A DNA stretch of 24,069 nt from positions 1-24,069 of IMG/VR virus record IMGVR_UViG_3300028025_000664, one strand, 5' to 3'. A model generated the notes under the pieces. The model was not told where the DNA came from. It saw nothing but the letters and a program-made list of their open reading frames with translations, and made no database searches. The stretch is from a virus. Shown here in pieces: positions 2,376 through 15,671 of this stretch. A program made the translations under genes and the position numbers. Position 1 is the stretch's first letter; the number at the start of each line of letters is the position of its first letter.

Positions 2376-3674
2376 ATGGTAAAAATTATTGTAGCAAAAG
2401 AAAAGCATGACTGTTCTCATCTGTCTGGGCAGTTTATTGATGAGAGACACTACGACCTTCTTATCGAAGAAGACACCGATGTGTATATGCCATGCAAGTA
2501 TGGTGAAGAACCATACACAGAGGACAAGATTGTTTTGAAGTTTCGTAAGAATTACTTTACAAAAGAACAACAGGAAATGGCATACGTTGGTCTCCGTGAA
2601 GCAGCAGTTGAAACCCAGAATCGTGGACTTGCAGCTGGACCACGTGGTGACAAACTAGGTAATCGTGAATGGGTTACTGAGTATGAGTATGATGTGCTTG
2701 ACTACTTTGTTAAGCCGACAGAGAATCTGTTTGGTGAAGATCCAATCGATCTTATCAAAGAACGCCACAAAGGTAAAGCACCATCGCCATCCAATCGTAA
2801 TAATGTTTGGGGTATTCAGGCAGTTAAGAAAGACAATTTTGTTTTTGCTGATTGGGTTGAGGCTACTCGTAAACTATCCAATGATGAGATGAAGGCAGAA
2901 GCCAATCGTGTAATCACAAAGTATGTTTGCGCAACTACCTATGCCAATGGCGTGTTCTCTGGTATTGCTGGTTGGTTCGATCGTTACCCACGTATCCCTT
3001 ATGGTCGTGCAACTTCATACACTGCTCGTCATCCTGATAAGTTTGCCAAGTCTTTCCCATTCCTTCAGCAATTGGCTAAAGGTTTTAAAGACCTACTTCC
3101 TCAGCGTTATGCAGCACAGATGGAAGCTGCAAACAAGATCGACAAAGGTTTCTTGGTTCCTGAAACCCCATTCACTACTGTTACAGTGAACAAAACATTC
3201 CGCACTGCTGCTCACTACGATGCTGGCGATCTGAATGAAGGTTTGTCTAACCTCTTGACACTTTCCAATGATGGTAAGTATACTGGTGGTTATTTGATTG
3301 CACCTGAGTATCGTGTTGCAGTTAATCCACGTCCAGGTGATTTGCTACTAATTAACAATCACGAAGTTATGCATGGTAATACTCCGATTGTTTGTGAAGA
3401 AGGTTCAGAGCGTATCTCTCTTGTTGTTTACTTCCGTGAGAAGATGCTTGAACTTGGTTCCAAGCAATACGAAGATACTCGTTATGACTTTGTTGAGTCA
3501 CGCAGACTGAACAAAGAACATCCTGAGTGGCGTCATCTATGGAATGGCGTATCGCAGGGTATGTGGCTTTCTGAAGAGTGGTATGAGTATTGCGAAAGCA
3601 AACTGGGTCGTGAGCAAACAGAAAAGTATCACCCAGAATCAATTAAAGCATCATCGCTTGAAAGTTTCTTTTAA
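2376..3674 (+). CDS. TET/JBP-family 2-oxoglutarate/Fe(II) dioxygenase
   Basis: Predicted DNA base dioxygenase that hydroxylates the methyl group of 5-methylcytosine (TET) or thymine (JBP) using Fe(II), O2 and 2-oxoglutarate. The C-terminal half holds the double-stranded beta-helix core. The HxD iron ligands are H280 and D282 in TAAHYDAGDLNEG, the distal ligand is H333 in NHEVMHGNTP, and the 2-oxoglutarate arginine is probably R346 in SERISL. The strand GGYLIAPEYRVAVNPRPGDLLL is typical of the family. The N-terminal about 200 residues, including GPRGDKLGNREWVTEYEY, have no assignable domain. The AGGAG ribosome site at 2365-2369 fixes the start. It is the first gene of an overlapping cluster with a kinase and an amidoligase, which favours DNA hypermodification over protein hydroxylation. 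Substrate (T or 5mC) cannot be decided from sequence. Confidence 0.85.
   Translation: MVKIIVAKEKHDCSHLSGQFIDERHYDLLIEEDTDVYMPCKYGEEPYTEDKIVLKFRKNYFTKEQQEMAYVGLREAAVETQNRGLAAGPRGDKLGNREWVTEYEYDVLDYFVKPTENLFGEDPIDLIKERHKGKAPSPSNRNNVWGIQAVKKDNFVFADWVEATRKLSNDEMKAEANRVITKYVCATTYANGVFSGIAGWFDRYPRIPYGRATSYTARHPDKFAKSFPFLQQLAKGFKDLLPQRYAAQMEAANKIDKGFLVPETPFTTVTVNKTFRTAAHYDAGDLNEGLSNLLTLSNDGKYTGGYLIAPEYRVAVNPRPGDLLLINNHEVMHGNTPIVCEEGSERISLVVYFREKMLELGSKQYEDTRYDFVESRRLNKEHPEWRHLWNGVSQGMWLSEEWYEYCESKLGREQTEKYHPESIKASSLESFF
3255..3284 (+). promoter_or_regulatory. Possible sigma70 promoter inside the dioxygenase gene
   Basis: TTGACA (3255-3260), an 18-base spacer, and TATACT (3279-3284), 6/6 and 5/6 matches. 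It lies about 390 bases before the amidotransferase start, farther than the other internal promoters, so it may be a chance match. Confidence 0.3.
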
Positions 3675-4360
3675 TGTGTTCAGTTATCGGTGCGATAATT
3701 AAAAAACCCGACCATGAAGACTTTCAAAAACTTGAGAAAGTATTTCATGAGTCTCGTATTCGTGGTCTTCATGCCACTGGTATTTCTTACGTAAAAGAAT
3801 ACACAATCCATACTATAAAACTTCCAGTGTCAGCGGATATGTTTCCGTTTTCTTGGAATGACTACGTGAATGAGGATGGCAATCTCTACTTGGTGGGGCA
3901 TTGCCGTTACTCAACATCAGACCTAGAATACAATCAACCCATTAATAATCAAACAACTTCTGTTGTTCATAATGGTGTTATCACACAGGAACTGCCAGAA
4001 AACTGGGAAAAGTTATATGGTTATAAGTGCGAGACTAAGAATGATACTGAACTGATTCTTCATACAATTGATGATGATAAGTCACCTTTGAAAGTTTGGA
4101 AAGATTCATCTCTTGCTGTTTGTGAACTTTGGTTTTGCAAGAAACTTAAATTCTATCGCAATGGGAAACGACCACTTTACTTGACTTCTTTAGACAATGG
4201 ATGTATAATTACTTCTACTAGGGATGTTATTGTTCGTGCTGGTATTACAGACCCAACAGTTGATGTTCCAATGAATACATACATTACCTTTGACGAATAC
4301 CTGACTATGACAACAGAAAAGGCTGACGTTGCAGGAGTTGATTATCAAATCGGAGTTTGA
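3674..4360 (+). CDS. Stand-alone class II glutamine amidotransferase (Ntn hydrolase)
   Basis: Glutaminase-type domain that releases ammonia from glutamine with an N-terminal cysteine nucleophile. C2 directly follows the initiator Met (MCSVIGAI), so Met removal would expose it. The other class II hallmarks are present at the expected spacing: GHCRYST at 75-81, HNG at 99-101 (oxyanion Asn/Gly) and KNDTE at 122-126, matching the order seen in GlmS and PurF. At 228 residues it is only the glutaminase domain, with no sugar-isomerase or phosphoribosyl domain, so it must pass ammonia to a partner. The obvious partner is the amidoligase that starts on the very next base. Its start overlaps the dioxygenase stop by one base and no strong ribosome site is visible, suggesting translational coupling. 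Family is certain; the final acceptor is unknown. Confidence 0.88.
   Translation: MCSVIGAIIKKPDHEDFQKLEKVFHESRIRGLHATGISYVKEYTIHTIKLPVSADMFPFSWNDYVNEDGNLYLVGHCRYSTSDLEYNQPINNQTTSVVHNGVITQELPENWEKLYGYKCETKNDTELILHTIDDDKSPLKVWKDSSLAVCELWFCKKLKFYRNGKRPLYLTSLDNGCIITSTRDVIVRAGITDPTVDVPMNTYITFDEYLTMTTEKADVAGVDYQIGV
4181..4209 (+). promoter_or_regulatory. sigma70 promoter inside the amidotransferase gene
   Basis: TTGACT (4181-4186), a 17-base spacer, and TATAAT (4204-4209): 11/12 to consensus at optimal spacing. It lies 157 bases (from -10 start) upstream of the amidoligase start, in the same relative place as the promoters ahead of 2376 and of thyX. It could boost the distal part of the modification cluster. 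Confidence 0.6.
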
Positions 4361-5332
4361 ATGAAATATAATACTGATGAGTTTAGCTACGGAGTTGAAC
4401 TAGAGTATGGTGATAGTTATCGCTTTTGCGAACTGCCTGATGGTGCTCAGTGGAATGACAAAGACAATACCTGTGTAAGCACTACAGGTATTGCCAACGA
4501 TCCAAATGGCAAGGTGTATGCTTATGGTGGTGAGATCAATACTCGCCCAACCATGACCATTGCTGAGCAGATTGAACACATTGCCAAGATCAATGCTGCC
4601 CTATGTCCTGCTCCTGTGGTAAACTACCGTAGCAACTTACATATTCACATTCGTGTTCCAAACCTTCATAACAATCTCGAAGATTGTAAGAAGCTACTAC
4701 GCTATGTAGAACGCTACCAGCAACAGGCATTTGATATCGTTGAAACTATCCCCACACCAAACAAGAATGTGTTACCACCAGAACAGTACGAGTGGGCACT
4801 GAAACGTATGAAGCGTCGTAAGAAGTCGCATCAGAATAAGTTACCACCTGCTCGAGTTGAGGCTATGTTGGCTTCTGAAACAGTGCATGACTTCTATGTT
4901 AATCATGCGCACAAAAATGCTGAGGGTGAGCCAGCATGGTTCCAATGCCCACGTGCAGGTATCAATCTGCGTCAGATGTGGGAAGAAACAAATACAATCG
5001 AGTTTCGCCACTTTCCAGGAACGCTGTATATGCCTGAGATGGAATCCTGTATTCGTTGGTGTAGAGACTTTCTCGATGCAGCATTAAACAGAGATGATGT
5101 GTCTCCACGTGAGTTCCATGCTGAAAGCGAATGGCAGTTTCCTGACTTTGAACCATACGAGTTTGAAACTGAACAGATCTATCAGTGGACTAACTTCGAT
5201 ACCAATACAAAGAAAGACATTGAAAAGCGTATTGCTGCACTCAGAAAAGAAATAGACATTGATGCTATCGGTAAGATTACGTCTCTTGATGTATTCCCTA
5301 TCATGCGTCGTTTACAATCAGAGGGTTTATGA
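4361..5332 (+). CDS. COOH-NH2 amidoligase (glutamine-synthetase-like fold)
   Basis: Predicted ATP-dependent ligase joining a carboxylate to an amine. Signatures of the amidoligase superfamily appear in order: GVELEY at 11-16 (metal-binding Glu pair), GGEINTRP at 56-63, NLHIHIRV at 92-99 (the paired His of the GLHVH-type motif), INLRQM at 201-206 and NTIEFRHF at 211-218. The last about 100 residues are helical and charged. A CGGAG ribosome site precedes the ATG, which immediately follows the amidotransferase stop. Amidoligases beside glutamine amidotransferases are an association already noted in comparative genomics of this superfamily, with the latter supplying ammonia or trimming glutamyl groups. 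Here the surrounding dioxygenase and kinase suggest the substrate is an amino acid attached to DNA; that is inference. Confidence 0.8.
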   Translation: MKYNTDEFSYGVELEYGDSYRFCELPDGAQWNDKDNTCVSTTGIANDPNGKVYAYGGEINTRPTMTIAEQIEHIAKINAALCPAPVVNYRSNLHIHIRVPNLHNNLEDCKKLLRYVERYQQQAFDIVETIPTPNKNVLPPEQYEWALKRMKRRKKSHQNKLPPARVEAMLASETVHDFYVNHAHKNAEGEPAWFQCPRAGINLRQMWEETNTIEFRHFPGTLYMPEMESCIRWCRDFLDAALNRDDVSPREFHAESEWQFPDFEPYEFETEQIYQWTNFDTNTKKDIEKRIAALRKEIDIDAIGKITSLDVFPIMRRLQSEGL

Positions 5333-5751
5333 AAGTATTGTTCCTTTGTCATGGCAATGTAAACCGCAGTGCTGCTGCGGAGATTATCCTCAGGCAGGAT
5401 TATCCACACATCGAAGTAAAGTCAGCTGGTCTCAAGACTACTGATGGTAGAATCACTGCCAAGAAGATGCGTGATGTTCTTAATGACCATGGTTACAAGA
5501 CAGAAGGTATTCGTTCTACCGCAGTCACTCAAGAGTTGGTTGACTGGGCGGATGAGATTTTCTACATGGACGATGCCAATAAAAAGAGATTTGTCGATAA
5601 ATTCGGGGACTTACCCAAGGCACAGAAGCTGTCCAATCTAATCCCTGGAGTCAAAAAGATTCCTGATCCAGCATTCGCTGACGGAACTAATATGCACCAT
5701 GAAGTTGTTAACCTAATCAAGACTGCTCTGAATACATGGACTACCGCTTAA
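5329..5751 (+). CDS. Low-molecular-weight phosphotyrosine phosphatase-like protein
   Basis: A 140-residue protein of the LMW-PTP / arsenate reductase fold. The phosphate-binding loop is near the N-terminus: C7-x5-R13-S14 in FLCHGNVNRSAAAE. The general-acid loop DP (D113-P114) is in KKIPDPAF near the C-terminus, as in the family. The usual second cysteine of CxGNxCRS is Asn12 here, so a redox or arsenate-reductase role is less likely than phosphate-ester hydrolysis. It overlaps the amidoligase stop by ATGA (4 bases) and the next gene by 16 bases, so it is locked into the cluster. A function on phosphorylated base intermediates is attractive, but host-protein dephosphorylation is equally possible from sequence. 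Confidence 0.85.
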   Translation: MKVLFLCHGNVNRSAAAEIILRQDYPHIEVKSAGLKTTDGRITAKKMRDVLNDHGYKTEGIRSTAVTQELVDWADEIFYMDDANKKRFVDKFGDLPKAQKLSNLIPGVKKIPDPAFADGTNMHHEVVNLIKTALNTWTTA

Positions 5752-6755
5752 GAGAGAATCGTAGAGAAGCATTCATACGCTGGTACGCATGGTCATTGAA
5801 GTATGATGATTGCGATCCAGCTGTATGGGCTACGAATTATCTAAACAAACGCTACGAACACAACGATGAACAACGTCTGTGGCTTTGCTGGCTATATGGC
5901 AACACTTACTATCTTCCAACCTCATGGGTTCTGTTAAACGAATTCCCTGACTTTGAACTAGCAACTGTTGGTCGTATGGAACAGTGGAACACTGCCAACT
6001 ATAAACGTCTTCGTTATCAGACAGATACCAAGTGGAACAAGGGACATCTACCAGAGATGTTTGCTTCCTATCAGAAGTTTATCGGTGACAGAACACAACG
6101 TGAAGTATTGGAGAGTTATTATGGTGACAACGAGAGCAGAAATTTTGACAACCTGTGGGAACGGATTAAAGGCGATCTTCATAAGTTCGGTCGTTACTCC
6201 ACTTGGTTTTATCTTCAGCATCTTAAGCATACCGCTGGTATTCGGATCAATCCTACTTCTCTTATGCTGGATGACTATTCTGGTTCTCGCTCTCATCGTA
6301 ATGGGTTGCTTTATGCCCTCGGCAAAGATGACCTTTGTGATACAAAACTTACTCAGTCGGAATACGCTAGTCTTGAAAGCGAGTCAACCTCAATCCTTAT
6401 GGAAACGAAATCCCGTTTCCCAGATCTAGCAGATCAGGTAGACTTCTTTACGATGGAAACCTGCCTGTGTTCCTTTAAGAAGATCTTCAGAGAACACCAT
6501 GGTCGTTACCTTGGATACTATCTGGATCGTCAGGCAGAGGAGATTATGCAATGCGAAAAGGATGGCTGGTTTGGTATTGAGTGGCAAGTCCTTTGGGATG
6601 CTCGCAACGAAACCATAGACTTACGTTTGGATAGCAAACGTGGAATAGTCAAGGAGAACTTTACTTCCTTCGTTAGAACAGGTAAAATGTCTAATCTGGA
6701 ATGGATGTTTGATGATGAAGAATATGTTAATACAGGACTGGAGATGTTTTTATGA
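5736..6755 (+). CDS. Amino acid:DNA transferase / hmdU-kinase-helical family protein (former aGPT-PPlase group)
   Basis: A 339-residue, mostly helical soluble protein. I match it by pattern to phage proteins first described as alpha-glutamyl/putrescinyl-thymine pyrophosphorylases and later split into amino acid:DNA transferases and the helical domain of 5-hydroxymethyl-dU DNA kinase. Recognisable stretches are WLCWLYGNTYYLPTSWVLLN and NEFPDFEL, the block NYKRLRYQTDTKWNKGHLPEM, and SLMLDDYSGSRSHRNGL. Many invariant-looking Trp, Arg and Asp residues suggest an active enzyme. Its start lies 16 bases inside the phosphatase gene and its stop overlaps the P-loop kinase start by ATGA. If it is a transferase it would displace (pyro)phosphate from an activated base with an amino acid amine; if a helical partner, it would complete the small kinase that follows. 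I cannot separate these by eye. Confidence 0.6.
   Translation: MDYRLRENRREAFIRWYAWSLKYDDCDPAVWATNYLNKRYEHNDEQRLWLCWLYGNTYYLPTSWVLLNEFPDFELATVGRMEQWNTANYKRLRYQTDTKWNKGHLPEMFASYQKFIGDRTQREVLESYYGDNESRNFDNLWERIKGDLHKFGRYSTWFYLQHLKHTAGIRINPTSLMLDDYSGSRSHRNGLLYALGKDDLCDTKLTQSEYASLESESTSILMETKSRFPDLADQVDFFTMETCLCSFKKIFREHHGRYLGYYLDRQAEEIMQCEKDGWFGIEWQVLWDARNETIDLRLDSKRGIVKENFTSFVRTGKMSNLEWMFDDEEYVNTGLEMFL
6660..6688 (+). promoter_or_regulatory. Weak possible promoter ahead of the kinase gene
   Basis: TTTACT (6660-6665), a 17-base spacer, and TAAAAT (6683-6688), 4/6 and 5/6 matches, 64 bases before the kinase start. Similar matches occur by chance in AT-rich coding DNA, so it is listed with low confidence. 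Confidence 0.2.
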
Positions 6756-7294
6756 GAAAATTGATGGCAGTTGGTGGTCAACCAGGAACTGGTAAAACGA
6801 CACTGTTTCGTAAGTTTATGGAAAGTTACCAGTGGGAAACTGTGGAACCAAAGAAGATGCTTCCTGCGCTTTACTGCAAGGAACTGGATCTTTATGTTCT
6901 GGGCAAGTACGAGGATGGTGAAACCTTTGCAGGAACTGATCGTTTAAGTATGGCTGTTCAGCCTGTGGCGCAGAGTTTCGTGGCTGAAACCACTTCCAAT
7001 ATCCTATTCGAAGGCGACCGAATCTTTAACCAGTCTTTCTTGGAATTCGCCATGGGTTTGGAAGCCACCGACCTTCAGGTGGTTTATCTCAAGGTTCCAA
7101 ATGACCTGCTAAAGCAACGCTATGCGGATCGAGGTTCCGACCAATCCGAGACGTTTCTAAAAGGTCGTACGACTAAATATAACAACATCCTCTCAAACTT
7201 TGAGTTGATGCCCTATATTACTGAGTTTGTAAACACTAACTTAGAGGAACAAGGGAAAGTTCTTGCATTTATGGAGAAGCATCTGGTGAGTTGA
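6752..7294 (+). CDS. P-loop kinase, candidate 5-hydroxymethyl-base DNA kinase
   Basis: A 180-residue P-loop NTPase of the small-kinase type. Walker A is at residues 9-16 (GQPGTGKT) right at the N-terminus. A strand ending NILFEGDR (Walker-B-like Asp) is followed by LQVVYLKVP and an arginine-rich lid region (KQRYADRGSDQ). In known thymidine-hypermodifying phages a P-loop kinase phosphorylates 5-hydroxymethyl-dU in DNA before amino acid or polyamine transfer. Its coupling by ATGA overlap to the transferase/helical-domain gene and its place downstream of a TET/JBP enzyme fit that role. A generic nucleotide or polynucleotide kinase is the alternative. The stop codon overlaps the -35 box of the next promoter. 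Confidence 0.7.
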   Translation: MRKLMAVGGQPGTGKTTLFRKFMESYQWETVEPKKMLPALYCKELDLYVLGKYEDGETFAGTDRLSMAVQPVAQSFVAETTSNILFEGDRIFNQSFLEFAMGLEATDLQVVYLKVPNDLLKQRYADRGSDQSETFLKGRTTKYNNILSNFELMPYITEFVNTNLEEQGKVLAFMEKHLVS

Positions 7295-7319
7295 CATGCA
7301 AGGATTTTCTAGGTATAAT
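7291..7319 (+). promoter_or_regulatory. Perfect-consensus sigma70 promoter with a near-leaderless start
   Basis: TTGACA (7291-7296, overlapping the kinase stop codon), a 17-base spacer, and TATAAT (7314-7319), 12/12 to consensus. Only seven bases separate the -10 box from the ATG at 7327, so the expected transcription start falls at or next to the start codon. Confidence 0.75.
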
Positions 7320-7326
7320 TATCATT

Positions 7327-8034
7327 ATGAACTTCCTAGAAAACGCAACTTTCAACTGGATGGAATTGCTCAACTTTTATGAGCAACCATTCAGAGCTAA
7401 ACTCATTCCTGCCAAAGTCTGGAAGGATCTAGACCGCTATCGCAACGATTCAGCTGGTCTTACGAACTACGTCCGAAAGTGGCGAACCAAGATCAACTGG
7501 ATCACCATTCTTCCCAAGAAGAAGTCCTACGAAACCAACGTCTATGTTGGTGGTGAATACGATCCGAACGATCGACAGTGTATCCTTATCATCTATGCCA
7601 GAGACTTCGATAGCTTCCCCTTTACAGACTACAAGTGGGCGAGGTTTAAGTATCGTCTGATGCAAACTCTGATGCATGAGATAATCCACTTTATGCAGTA
7701 CGACCGAAGAGACGATATCTGGAGCAATTACGTTGTTCCTTACAAGAAGGTAGGCATAGCAAAGAAGGATGCCGAACGTAGATACCTCTCTGAGTTTGAC
7801 GAAATACAGGCTTATGCTCACTGCGTTTATCTAGACTACAAGATGAACAAACCCAATGTTCCAATCGAAACCCTCTTGGCTCGTTGCAAGAAATCCAAAG
7901 ACAAAGACTCCCCCACCCTCCACTACGTTCTTAAGACATTTAACTATGACTTCAGGAACAATGGTGCGCCACGCAAAATCATTGACCACATCGGTAAATG
8001 GCACAGAAAGTATTCTAGACTTAATCCTGCCTAA
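7327..8034 (+). CDS. Putative zinc metallopeptidase (HExxH protein)
   Basis: A 235-residue protein with a zincin-type motif, H117-E-I-I-H121 in LMHEIIHFMQYDRR. Downstream glutamates (E156, E159) in SEFDEIQAYAH could supply the third zinc ligand, as in gluzincin-like families. No signal peptide or membrane segment is seen, so it would act in the cytoplasm or virion. The start at 7327 is chosen over a TTG at 7291, because that TTG is the first half of a perfect promoter. The mRNA from that promoter would be leaderless or nearly so. The substrate is unknown. It sits between the modification cluster and the late genes, and its stop overlaps a late promoter. A structural, non-catalytic role is possible. 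Confidence 0.65.
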   Translation: MNFLENATFNWMELLNFYEQPFRAKLIPAKVWKDLDRYRNDSAGLTNYVRKWRTKINWITILPKKKSYETNVYVGGEYDPNDRQCILIIYARDFDSFPFTDYKWARFKYRLMQTLMHEIIHFMQYDRRDDIWSNYVVPYKKVGIAKKDAERRYLSEFDEIQAYAHCVYLDYKMNKPNVPIETLLARCKKSKDKDSPTLHYVLKTFNYDFRNNGAPRKIIDHIGKWHRKYSRLNPA

Positions 8035-15230: not shown

Positions 15231-15671
15231 ATGAACGAATTAAACATTGCAATTAAAGTGCTGCTGGCAAATGTCACAGTGCTATATTACAAAACGCATC
15301 AGTTTCACTGGAACGTAGAGGGTATCGAGTTTAGTCAGTACCATGACTTTCTTGGGGATCTTTATGCGGACATCTATGGTTCCGTAGATTCTATTGCAGA
15401 ATTGCTACGTAAGTTAGATGACTATGCTCCAAAGAGTCTAGATGAGTTGTTCAAGTACAAAACCCTGAACGAAGAAACAACTCAGACCAATGATATTCGT
15501 GCCATTATGTTAAAACTCCTTGCAGACAACGAAGAAGTTATCGCAAGCCTAAATAAAGTATTCACCTTGGCAAGTGCTGCCAATAAACAGGGAATAGCTG
15601 ATTTTGTTGCAGGTAGAATCGATGCTCATGATAAGCATAGCTGGTTCTTACGTGCTTCCGCCAAGAAATAA
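15231..15671 (+). CDS. dps: Dps-family ferritin (DNA-binding protein from starved cells)
   Basis: A 146-residue member of the Dps branch of ferritins, which assemble into 12-subunit shells, oxidise Fe(II) with H2O2 and may bind DNA. The inter-subunit ferroxidase residues line up with E. coli Dps at identical spacing: H26 (HWNVEG), H38, D53 and E57 (SVDSIAELLRKLDD). The position equivalent to Asp67 is Gly42, with Asp43 beside it. The protein has no Lys-rich N-terminal tail, so DNA binding by that route is unlikely. It starts two bases after the upstream stop with no clear ribosome site, implying coupling. It lies among genes with capsid-targeting-type N-termini but lacks such a peptide itself. 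It may protect host or packaged DNA from oxidative damage; packaging is speculation. Confidence 0.88.
   Translation: MNELNIAIKVLLANVTVLYYKTHQFHWNVEGIEFSQYHDFLGDLYADIYGSVDSIAELLRKLDDYAPKSLDELFKYKTLNEETTQTNDIRAIMLKLLADNEEVIASLNKVFTLASAANKQGIADFVAGRIDAHDKHSWFLRASAKK

Follow-up and report, generated by a model that had tools for sequence, protein, structure and literature searches.

Phage TET oxygenases, thymidine pathways that use a kinase and an amino acid:DNA transferase (ADDT), the combination of the two (Rhodococcus phage Tonitrus, mycobacteriophage Magpie) and amide-bearing phage bases (CmoY) are all known. The IMG/VR virus record IMGVR_UViG_3300028025_000664, analysed here over positions 1 to 24,069 (hereafter the window), is a fragment of an uncultured T4-like phage with UvsX, DnaB-like helicase and virion-type genes. 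At positions 2376–7294 it holds six genes, in which a TET oxygenase, an ADDT and a P-loop kinase stand beside a class II glutamine amidotransferase (GAT2), a COOH-NH2 amidoligase (AmLig) and a low-molecular-weight phosphatase (LMWP). We propose, with confidence slightly better than even, that the operon acts after replication to hypermodify thymine in the DNA of the phage itself by means of TET, kinase, ADDT, GAT2 and AmLig. As far as could be checked, GAT2 and the AmLig–LMWP module are new to such clusters, as is the logic by which their steps are swapped, although part of this may already be contained in the figures of Lee's 2022 paper.

Phage TETs reportedly supply the hydroxymethyl handle in a cytosine hypermodification that Burke is said to have described in 2021, the 5-methylcytosine coming from a co-encoded methylase, and Iyer is said to have predicted in 2013 that hydroxymethyl pyrimidines made by TET/JBP enzymes serve as starting points. 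The PaMx11 cluster includes a 5-phosphomethyl-deoxyuridine (5-PmdU) glycinyltransferase (gp46), a flavin-dependent lyase (gp47), an acetyltransferase (gp48) and gp49–gp51. Like the window, where these roles are predicted, it unites an ADDT-family transferase acting on 5-PmdU, a P-loop kinase and an amide-forming cap in one cluster; unlike the window, it has a thymidylate synthase (TS)-family gene, a flavin lyase and an acetyltransferase, whereas the window has TET, GAT2 and AmLig–LMWP. Acetylation in PaMx11 was reportedly described by Lee in 2022, in a work whose abstract is said to mention combinatorial permutations in viral metagenomes. The cluster of phage Simon contains ADDT, an FAD oxidoreductase (DAO), AmLig, LMWP, HMUDK_HMUD1 (weak), HMUDK_hel, Nmad5 and a TS-family gene; the PaMx11 cluster is ordered alike, its acetyltransferase standing where Simon has AmLig–LMWP. 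Simon and related IMG/VR clusters (about a dozen contigs match this type) share with the window the same AmLig (41% identical) and LMWP, adjacent to each other and accompanied by ADDT and a kinase, but have the TS family for TET, a flavin oxidoreductase for GAT2 and a different kinase family.

A TET-like/kinase/aGPT-PPlase2 thymidine hypermodification cluster has been named in Tonitrus (PMC11955845). In Magpie (cluster B), ParB-like, TET-like (weak, 5e-6), ADDT and Ploopntkinase3 genes lie in a row. Both phages resemble the window in combining a TET-like oxygenase, ADDT or aGPT-PPlase2, and a (in the window, predicted) 5-hydroxymethyl-uracil (5-hmU) DNA kinase, and with them in view the novelty claimed in the preliminary description of the window was overstated; the Magpie stretch read differs in its ParB-like gene and in that GAT2, AmLig and LMWP were not found in it. 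Caulobacter phage Cr30 encodes a TET (46% identity), an ADDT and a kinase (40%) within 9 kb. It differs from the window in lacking GAT2 and AmLig in the 19 kb read, and in carrying a weak TET-associated glycosyltransferase (TAGT)-like match and a strong thymidylate synthase match (373 bits, vs 53–86 bits for the TS-family genes of the clusters), which we read as an ordinary thymidylate synthase. Finally, CmoX/CmoY of phage S-B43 form an amide on a phage DNA base in an ATP-dependent manner, one ligase cluster carrying a glutamine-hydrolysing domain (PMC12783734); the likeness to the window lies in the ATP-dependent amide formation predicted there, and the difference in 5-carboxymethylcytosine, carboxy-SAM chemistry and AMP-forming ligases.

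Families and motifs of the six genes

Immediately after the DnaB-like helicase gene, six intact genes follow one another on the + strand, neighbours overlapping by 1–16 nt or abutting directly:

2376–3674, + strand: TET (Tet_JBP oxygenase), 432 aa; PF12851, E 9.9e-25; phrog_24024, 1.4e-161
3674–4360, + strand: GAT2 (class II glutamine amidotransferase), 228 aa; PF13522 (GATase_6), E 1.5e-9
4361–5332, + strand: AmLig (COOH-NH2 amidoligase), 323 aa; PF12224 (Amidoligase_2), E 9.1e-5
5329–5751, + strand: LMWP (low-molecular-weight phosphatase), 140 aa; PF01451 (LMWPc), E 4.8e-17
5736–6755, + strand: ADDT (amino acid:DNA transferase), 339 aa; PF18724, E 2.3e-22
6752–7294, + strand: P-loop nucleotide kinase, 180 aa; PF18751 (Ploopntkinase3), E 1.8e-10

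The six overlapping or abutting genes of the preliminary description were all recovered as open reading frames (ORFs) and matched to families by Pfam profile search; its 'transferase/hmdU-kinase-helical' protein held up as a transferase (ADDT) and failed to match HMUDK_hel. The catalytic motifs of all six are intact, and dN/dS values of 0.01–0.25 for each gene against near relatives indicate purifying selection. Relatives of the six genes occur on hundreds of IMG/VR contigs (265 for ADDT, 488 for GAT2 and 83 for AmLig); a DNA-level search among phage records for relatives of the locus gave no match.

The Fe/2-oxoglutarate (2OG) residues of TET (H280, D282, H333 and R346) are invariant in 149/149 relatives and align with those of human TET2. 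The protein is 51% identical to its relative in Stenotrophomonas phage DLP6, 46% to that in Cr30 and 42% to that in phage C48C1, two of these three carrying the database name 'SNF2 DNA repair protein'. It is predicted to convert thymine in DNA to 5-hmU. Residues D285 and R354, considered as markers of thymine versus cytosine, differ from TET2 N1387 and H1904; the arginine is shared by the P12024L TET, which lies beside an unspecified DNA methyltransferase, and the residues are not diagnostic. Arginine at the site of H1904 in 133/149 relatives is suggestive only.

The deposited name 'SNF2 DNA repair protein' stands for phage TET/JBP enzymes across the DLP6, Cr30 and S-CBWM1 loci, among which kinases of the Ploopntkinase3 type bear the labels 'terminase small subunit' or 'adenylate kinase', and phrog_24024, of unknown function in PHROG, is the family of the window's TET. 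In C48C1 (L004:8938-12385) TET is followed by a 344-aa unknown protein and then a UDP-galactopyranose mutase, and in S-CBWM1 (L005:3729-7921) by a TAGT; both arrangements possibly yield sugar-decorated bases. Methylophilales phage Melnitz-3 (L089:4010-8087) encodes in a row an HhaI-like C5 methylase, a TET, a protein of 427 aa that matches no Pfam family and a kinase akin to that of the window, likely a cytosine counterpart of the pathway proposed below.

The AlphaFold2 model of ADDT (pLDDT 89.6) found as top PDB folds 8z2n and 8z2m, the PaMx11 5-PmdU glycinyltransferase (probability 1.00, TM 0.52–0.62), with DNA glycosylases next, weakly; on this model, ADDT is predicted to replace the phosphate of 5-PmdU. 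Hundreds of distant relatives occur in cultured phages, including ViI-like phages and mycobacteriophages. A profile alignment of glycine-type against GAT2-type ADDTs kept register (D-DP and ET-LC motifs) and yields no ligand contacts, and PDB profile searches with the ADDT and GAT2 alignments gave no matches. The kinase (Walker A motif GQPGTGKT) matched Ploopntkinase3 and none of the HMUDK families, has relatives near ADDT in mycobacteriophages and Cr30, and is predicted to be a 5-hmU DNA kinase.

GAT2 is a class II (N-terminal nucleophile, Ntn) domain alone, with an N-terminal Cys2. Its C2, GHCRYS, HNG and NDxE motifs are conserved, and C2, R78, N100-G101 and D124 are invariant in the alignment of relatives, which in cultured phages are remote only and mainly PaP3-like. 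The Amidoligase_2 match of AmLig is marginal (22.9 bits vs a cut-off of 22). Its AlphaFold2 model (pLDDT 94.5) gave as best PDB folds glutamate-cysteine ligases, glutamine synthetases and YbdK (E 1e-3 to 1e-2, TM ~0.3), and AmLig is predicted to be a COOH-NH2 amidoligase of the glutamate-cysteine ligase/glutamine synthetase (GCS/GS) fold that caps an amine with an acyl group. Two relatives are found in cultured phages, including that of Simon. LMWP retains the CX5R(S/T) motif (C7–R13) and the DP general-acid motif; AmLig is present at 77/77 LMWP-bearing loci, suggesting that the two are partners, and the pair recurs alongside HMUDK, HMUDK_hel and the TS family in thymidine clusters of the canonical kind.

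Elsewhere, an AmLig relative in Vibrio phage 2.275.O (L092:5890-11098) adjoins QueF-like, queuosine and GTP cyclohydrolase I genes, which hints at use in 7-deazaguanine DNA modification. Three contigs of 80–133 kb (L148, L153 and L155) carry two to three tandem divergent AmLig copies, with TET, TS and ADDT not detected nearby.

Cassette anatomy and exchangeable steps

The cassette genes recur in order across 112 distinct intervals from GAT2 to ADDT; the loci were gathered with ADDT, GAT2 and AmLig queries, which biases the share of AmLig upward. TET lies upstream of GAT2 in 71 of the 76 cassettes with room for it, the remaining five having TET further on (two), a TS-family gene instead (two) or neither (one), and the kinase follows ADDT in 57/59 cassettes with enough sequence. 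Variation lies between GAT2 and ADDT, in a slot that contains GNAT alone (44 intervals), AmLig and LMWP as in the window (42), a divergent AmLig (17) or AmLig and GNAT (5), while AmLig stands after ADDT in the other 4. An amide-forming enzyme was found in 112/112 intervals: GNAT alone in 44, AmLig in 63 (including the four just after ADDT) and both in 5. GNAT is undercounted, since at least one of the 17 divergent-AmLig cassettes (L050) also holds a GNAT-like ORF recognized by eye. No relationship was detectable by blastp between the GNAT of the sister cassettes and the PaMx11 acetyltransferase. Extra tailoring genes occur sporadically, namely radical SAM, glycosyltransferase group 1 (weak) and 2OG-Fe(II) oxygenases, located between ADDT and the kinase (L023, L029, L043), between GAT2 and AmLig (L074, L087) or between TET and GAT2 (L020, L039, L058, L059).

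Exchange of the hydroxymethyl and amine sources was counted in 37 AmLig/GAT2 records, to which Simon was added for the amine source; the records are related, and no probability is attached to the counts. The TS family (PF00303) is present in 15 records and TET (PF12851) in 16, never both; similarly, GAT2 is present in 17 and a PaMx11-like flavin lyase (matched to PDB 8z2o and 8z79) in 15, again never both. Because TET and PF00303 are mutually exclusive, the replacement of a TS-family deoxyuridine monophosphate (dUMP) hydroxymethylase by TET is supported. The combinations TET with GAT2, TS with GAT2 (L136, L138) and TS with lyase are clear, and that of TET with lyase (L158, L159, L161) depends on a divergent FAD oxidoreductase (E 1e-7 to 3e-10) whose Pfam matches are weak. 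The AmLig tree requires at least three changes of hydroxymethyl source and at least one of amine source. GAT2 is conserved in cassettes both with and without AmLig, and AmLig is kept without GAT2 in 12 clusters with TS and flavin lyase. Because each occurs without the other, they form no obligate pair, and we tentatively assign GAT2 to the ADDT step and treat AmLig as a separate capping module. ADDT is the conserved partner in all GAT2 cassettes that might use nitrogen. Judging by the title of gkae784, cited in PMC11946847, the flavin lyase belongs to the pathway of 5-aminomethyl-deoxyuridine (5-NmdU).

Proposed pathway and competing readings

From the families, their co-occurrence and the predicted folds we infer the chemical steps, their order, the base (thymine rather than cytosine) and the acyl donor: (i) TET would oxidize thymine in DNA at its methyl group, giving 5-hmU; (ii) the P-loop kinase would phosphorylate this to 5-PmdU; (iii) ADDT would swap the phosphate for a nitrogen nucleophile; (iv) the free-standing GAT2, the predicted source of the amine nitrogen, would provide it from glutamine to give 5-NmdU; and (v) AmLig would couple the amine to an acyl donor, probably a carboxylate such as an amino acid, yielding an amide-bearing base that would be new. 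In sister phages a GNAT acyltransferase would fill the slot of AmLig, and LMWP would act together with AmLig. Steps (iv) and (v) are proposed because GAT2 replaces the flavin lyase of the 5-NmdU pathway and ADDT is its common partner. In the most specific form, glutamine nitrogen fed by GAT2 passes through ADDT directly to 5-NmdU, on which a GCS-type AmLig builds an aminoacyl amide, replacing both glycine transfer and flavin lysis; we hold this form tentatively, at somewhat less than an even chance.

The base was addressed through the relatives. No PF00303 gene was found in contigs with TET and GAT2, including six of 126–174 kb, and no PF00145 (C5 methylase) gene in those tested, including five of 148–174 kb, by a search that recovered the methylase of Melnitz as a positive control; the long contigs are near genome size, not certified complete. 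The relatives thereby differ from the system attributed to Burke. Since neither a TS-family gene nor, in those tested, a C5 methylase turned up in these contigs, thymine is the likely substrate. Part of the preliminary description is supported by these results: a cassette for DNA-base hypermodification, on its families and their recurrence in thymidine hypermodification clusters; TET/JBP in place of a dUMP hydroxymethylase, on the absence of PF00303 and the TET/TS exclusivity; and the order of oxidation, phosphorylation and transfer, on the predicted fold of ADDT.

Several points weigh against the proposed pathway. Because the window covers no more than 24 kb of the phage, the absence of TS and methylase genes rests on relatives. 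By tblastn, ADDT is nearest to the ViI-like and mycobacteriophage enzymes, not to the glycine enzyme, and for this reason it may take an amino acid as nucleophile. The scheme leaves LMWP without explanation, and the AmLig tree calls for only a single swap between GAT2 and lyase. We know of no ADDT that uses ammonia.

The preliminary description had ADDT attach an amino acid whose carboxylate GAT2 and AmLig then jointly amidate, giving an amino-acid-amide or peptide base. GAT2 and AmLig do adjoin in the window and are paired in phage PaP3, and relatives of ADDT transfer amino acids; however, 44/112 cassettes combine GAT2 with GNAT, AmLig being undetected, the 12 TS and lyase clusters have AmLig without GAT2, and carboxylate amidation is not expected of GNAT. 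Joint amidation by the pair is not supported by these counts, and we regard it as unlikely. Less likely again is a scheme in which ADDT takes glutamine or another amino acid, as known ADDTs take amino acids, and GAT2 later hydrolyses the attached group, as class II domains do with glutamine side chains, before AmLig caps the product; it departs from the pathway proposed above in the timing of GAT2 only.

A slightly lower standing is given to cytosine as the substrate, with TET oxidizing 5-methylcytosine made by a host or distant phage methylase, and kinase and transferase acting on 5-hydroxymethylcytosine. Activity of phage TETs on 5-methylcytosine was reportedly described by Burke in 2021, and Melnitz has an HhaI-like methylase next to a TET and a related kinase, but the negative PF00145 search of the contigs tested, the exchange of TET with TS-family enzymes in HMUDK/HMUDK_hel clusters and, suggestively only, the arginine at the TET2 H1904 site argue for thymine. 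A protein, cell-wall component or metabolite as target, as proposed for some phage amidoligase/amidotransferase clusters and as PaP3 might suggest (GAT2, amidoligases and a gene annotated as S6 glutaminyl transferase, with no ADDT in the stretch read), is very improbable: TET, ADDT and kinase belong to families associated with DNA bases, the fold predicted for ADDT is that of a 5-PmdU transferase of solved structure, and AmLig–LMWP recurs in ADDT/HMUDK/TS clusters.

Phages answer host restriction with a modular DNA chemistry, and the clusters point to steps that are each exchangeable independently: the hydroxymethyl source between TET and TS, the amine source between GAT2 and flavin lyase, and the cap between amidoligase and acetyltransferase. 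Such a rule would be a concrete, testable guide for reading many uncultured clusters. The pathway predicts phage TETs acting on thymine in phage DNA, the amination of a DNA base with nitrogen from glutamine, and an amidoligase acting on DNA, which, if true, could become DNA-labelling tools.

Candidate promoters and neighbouring genes

Four further features of the window lie outside the six genes or at their edge:

2215–2243, + strand: candidate promoter TTGACA-17-TATAAT, exact sigma-70 consensus, inside the upstream helicase gene
7291–7319: second exact TTGACA-17-TATAAT, right behind the kinase gene and shortly before an in-frame ATG
7291–8034: gene following the kinase gene
15231–15671: gene for a ferritin-like/Dps-like DNA-binding protein (phrog_3636)

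The first string had been called a perfect promoter. It is exact as a string, but it falls within conserved helicase coding sequence and is present in exact form in only 12/131 upstream regions compared, and it counts as a putative promoter. The protein encoded after the kinase gene contains an HExxH motif (HEIIHF) and is kept downstream of the kinase in most relatives; the TTG at 7291 listed as its start is probably not the true one.

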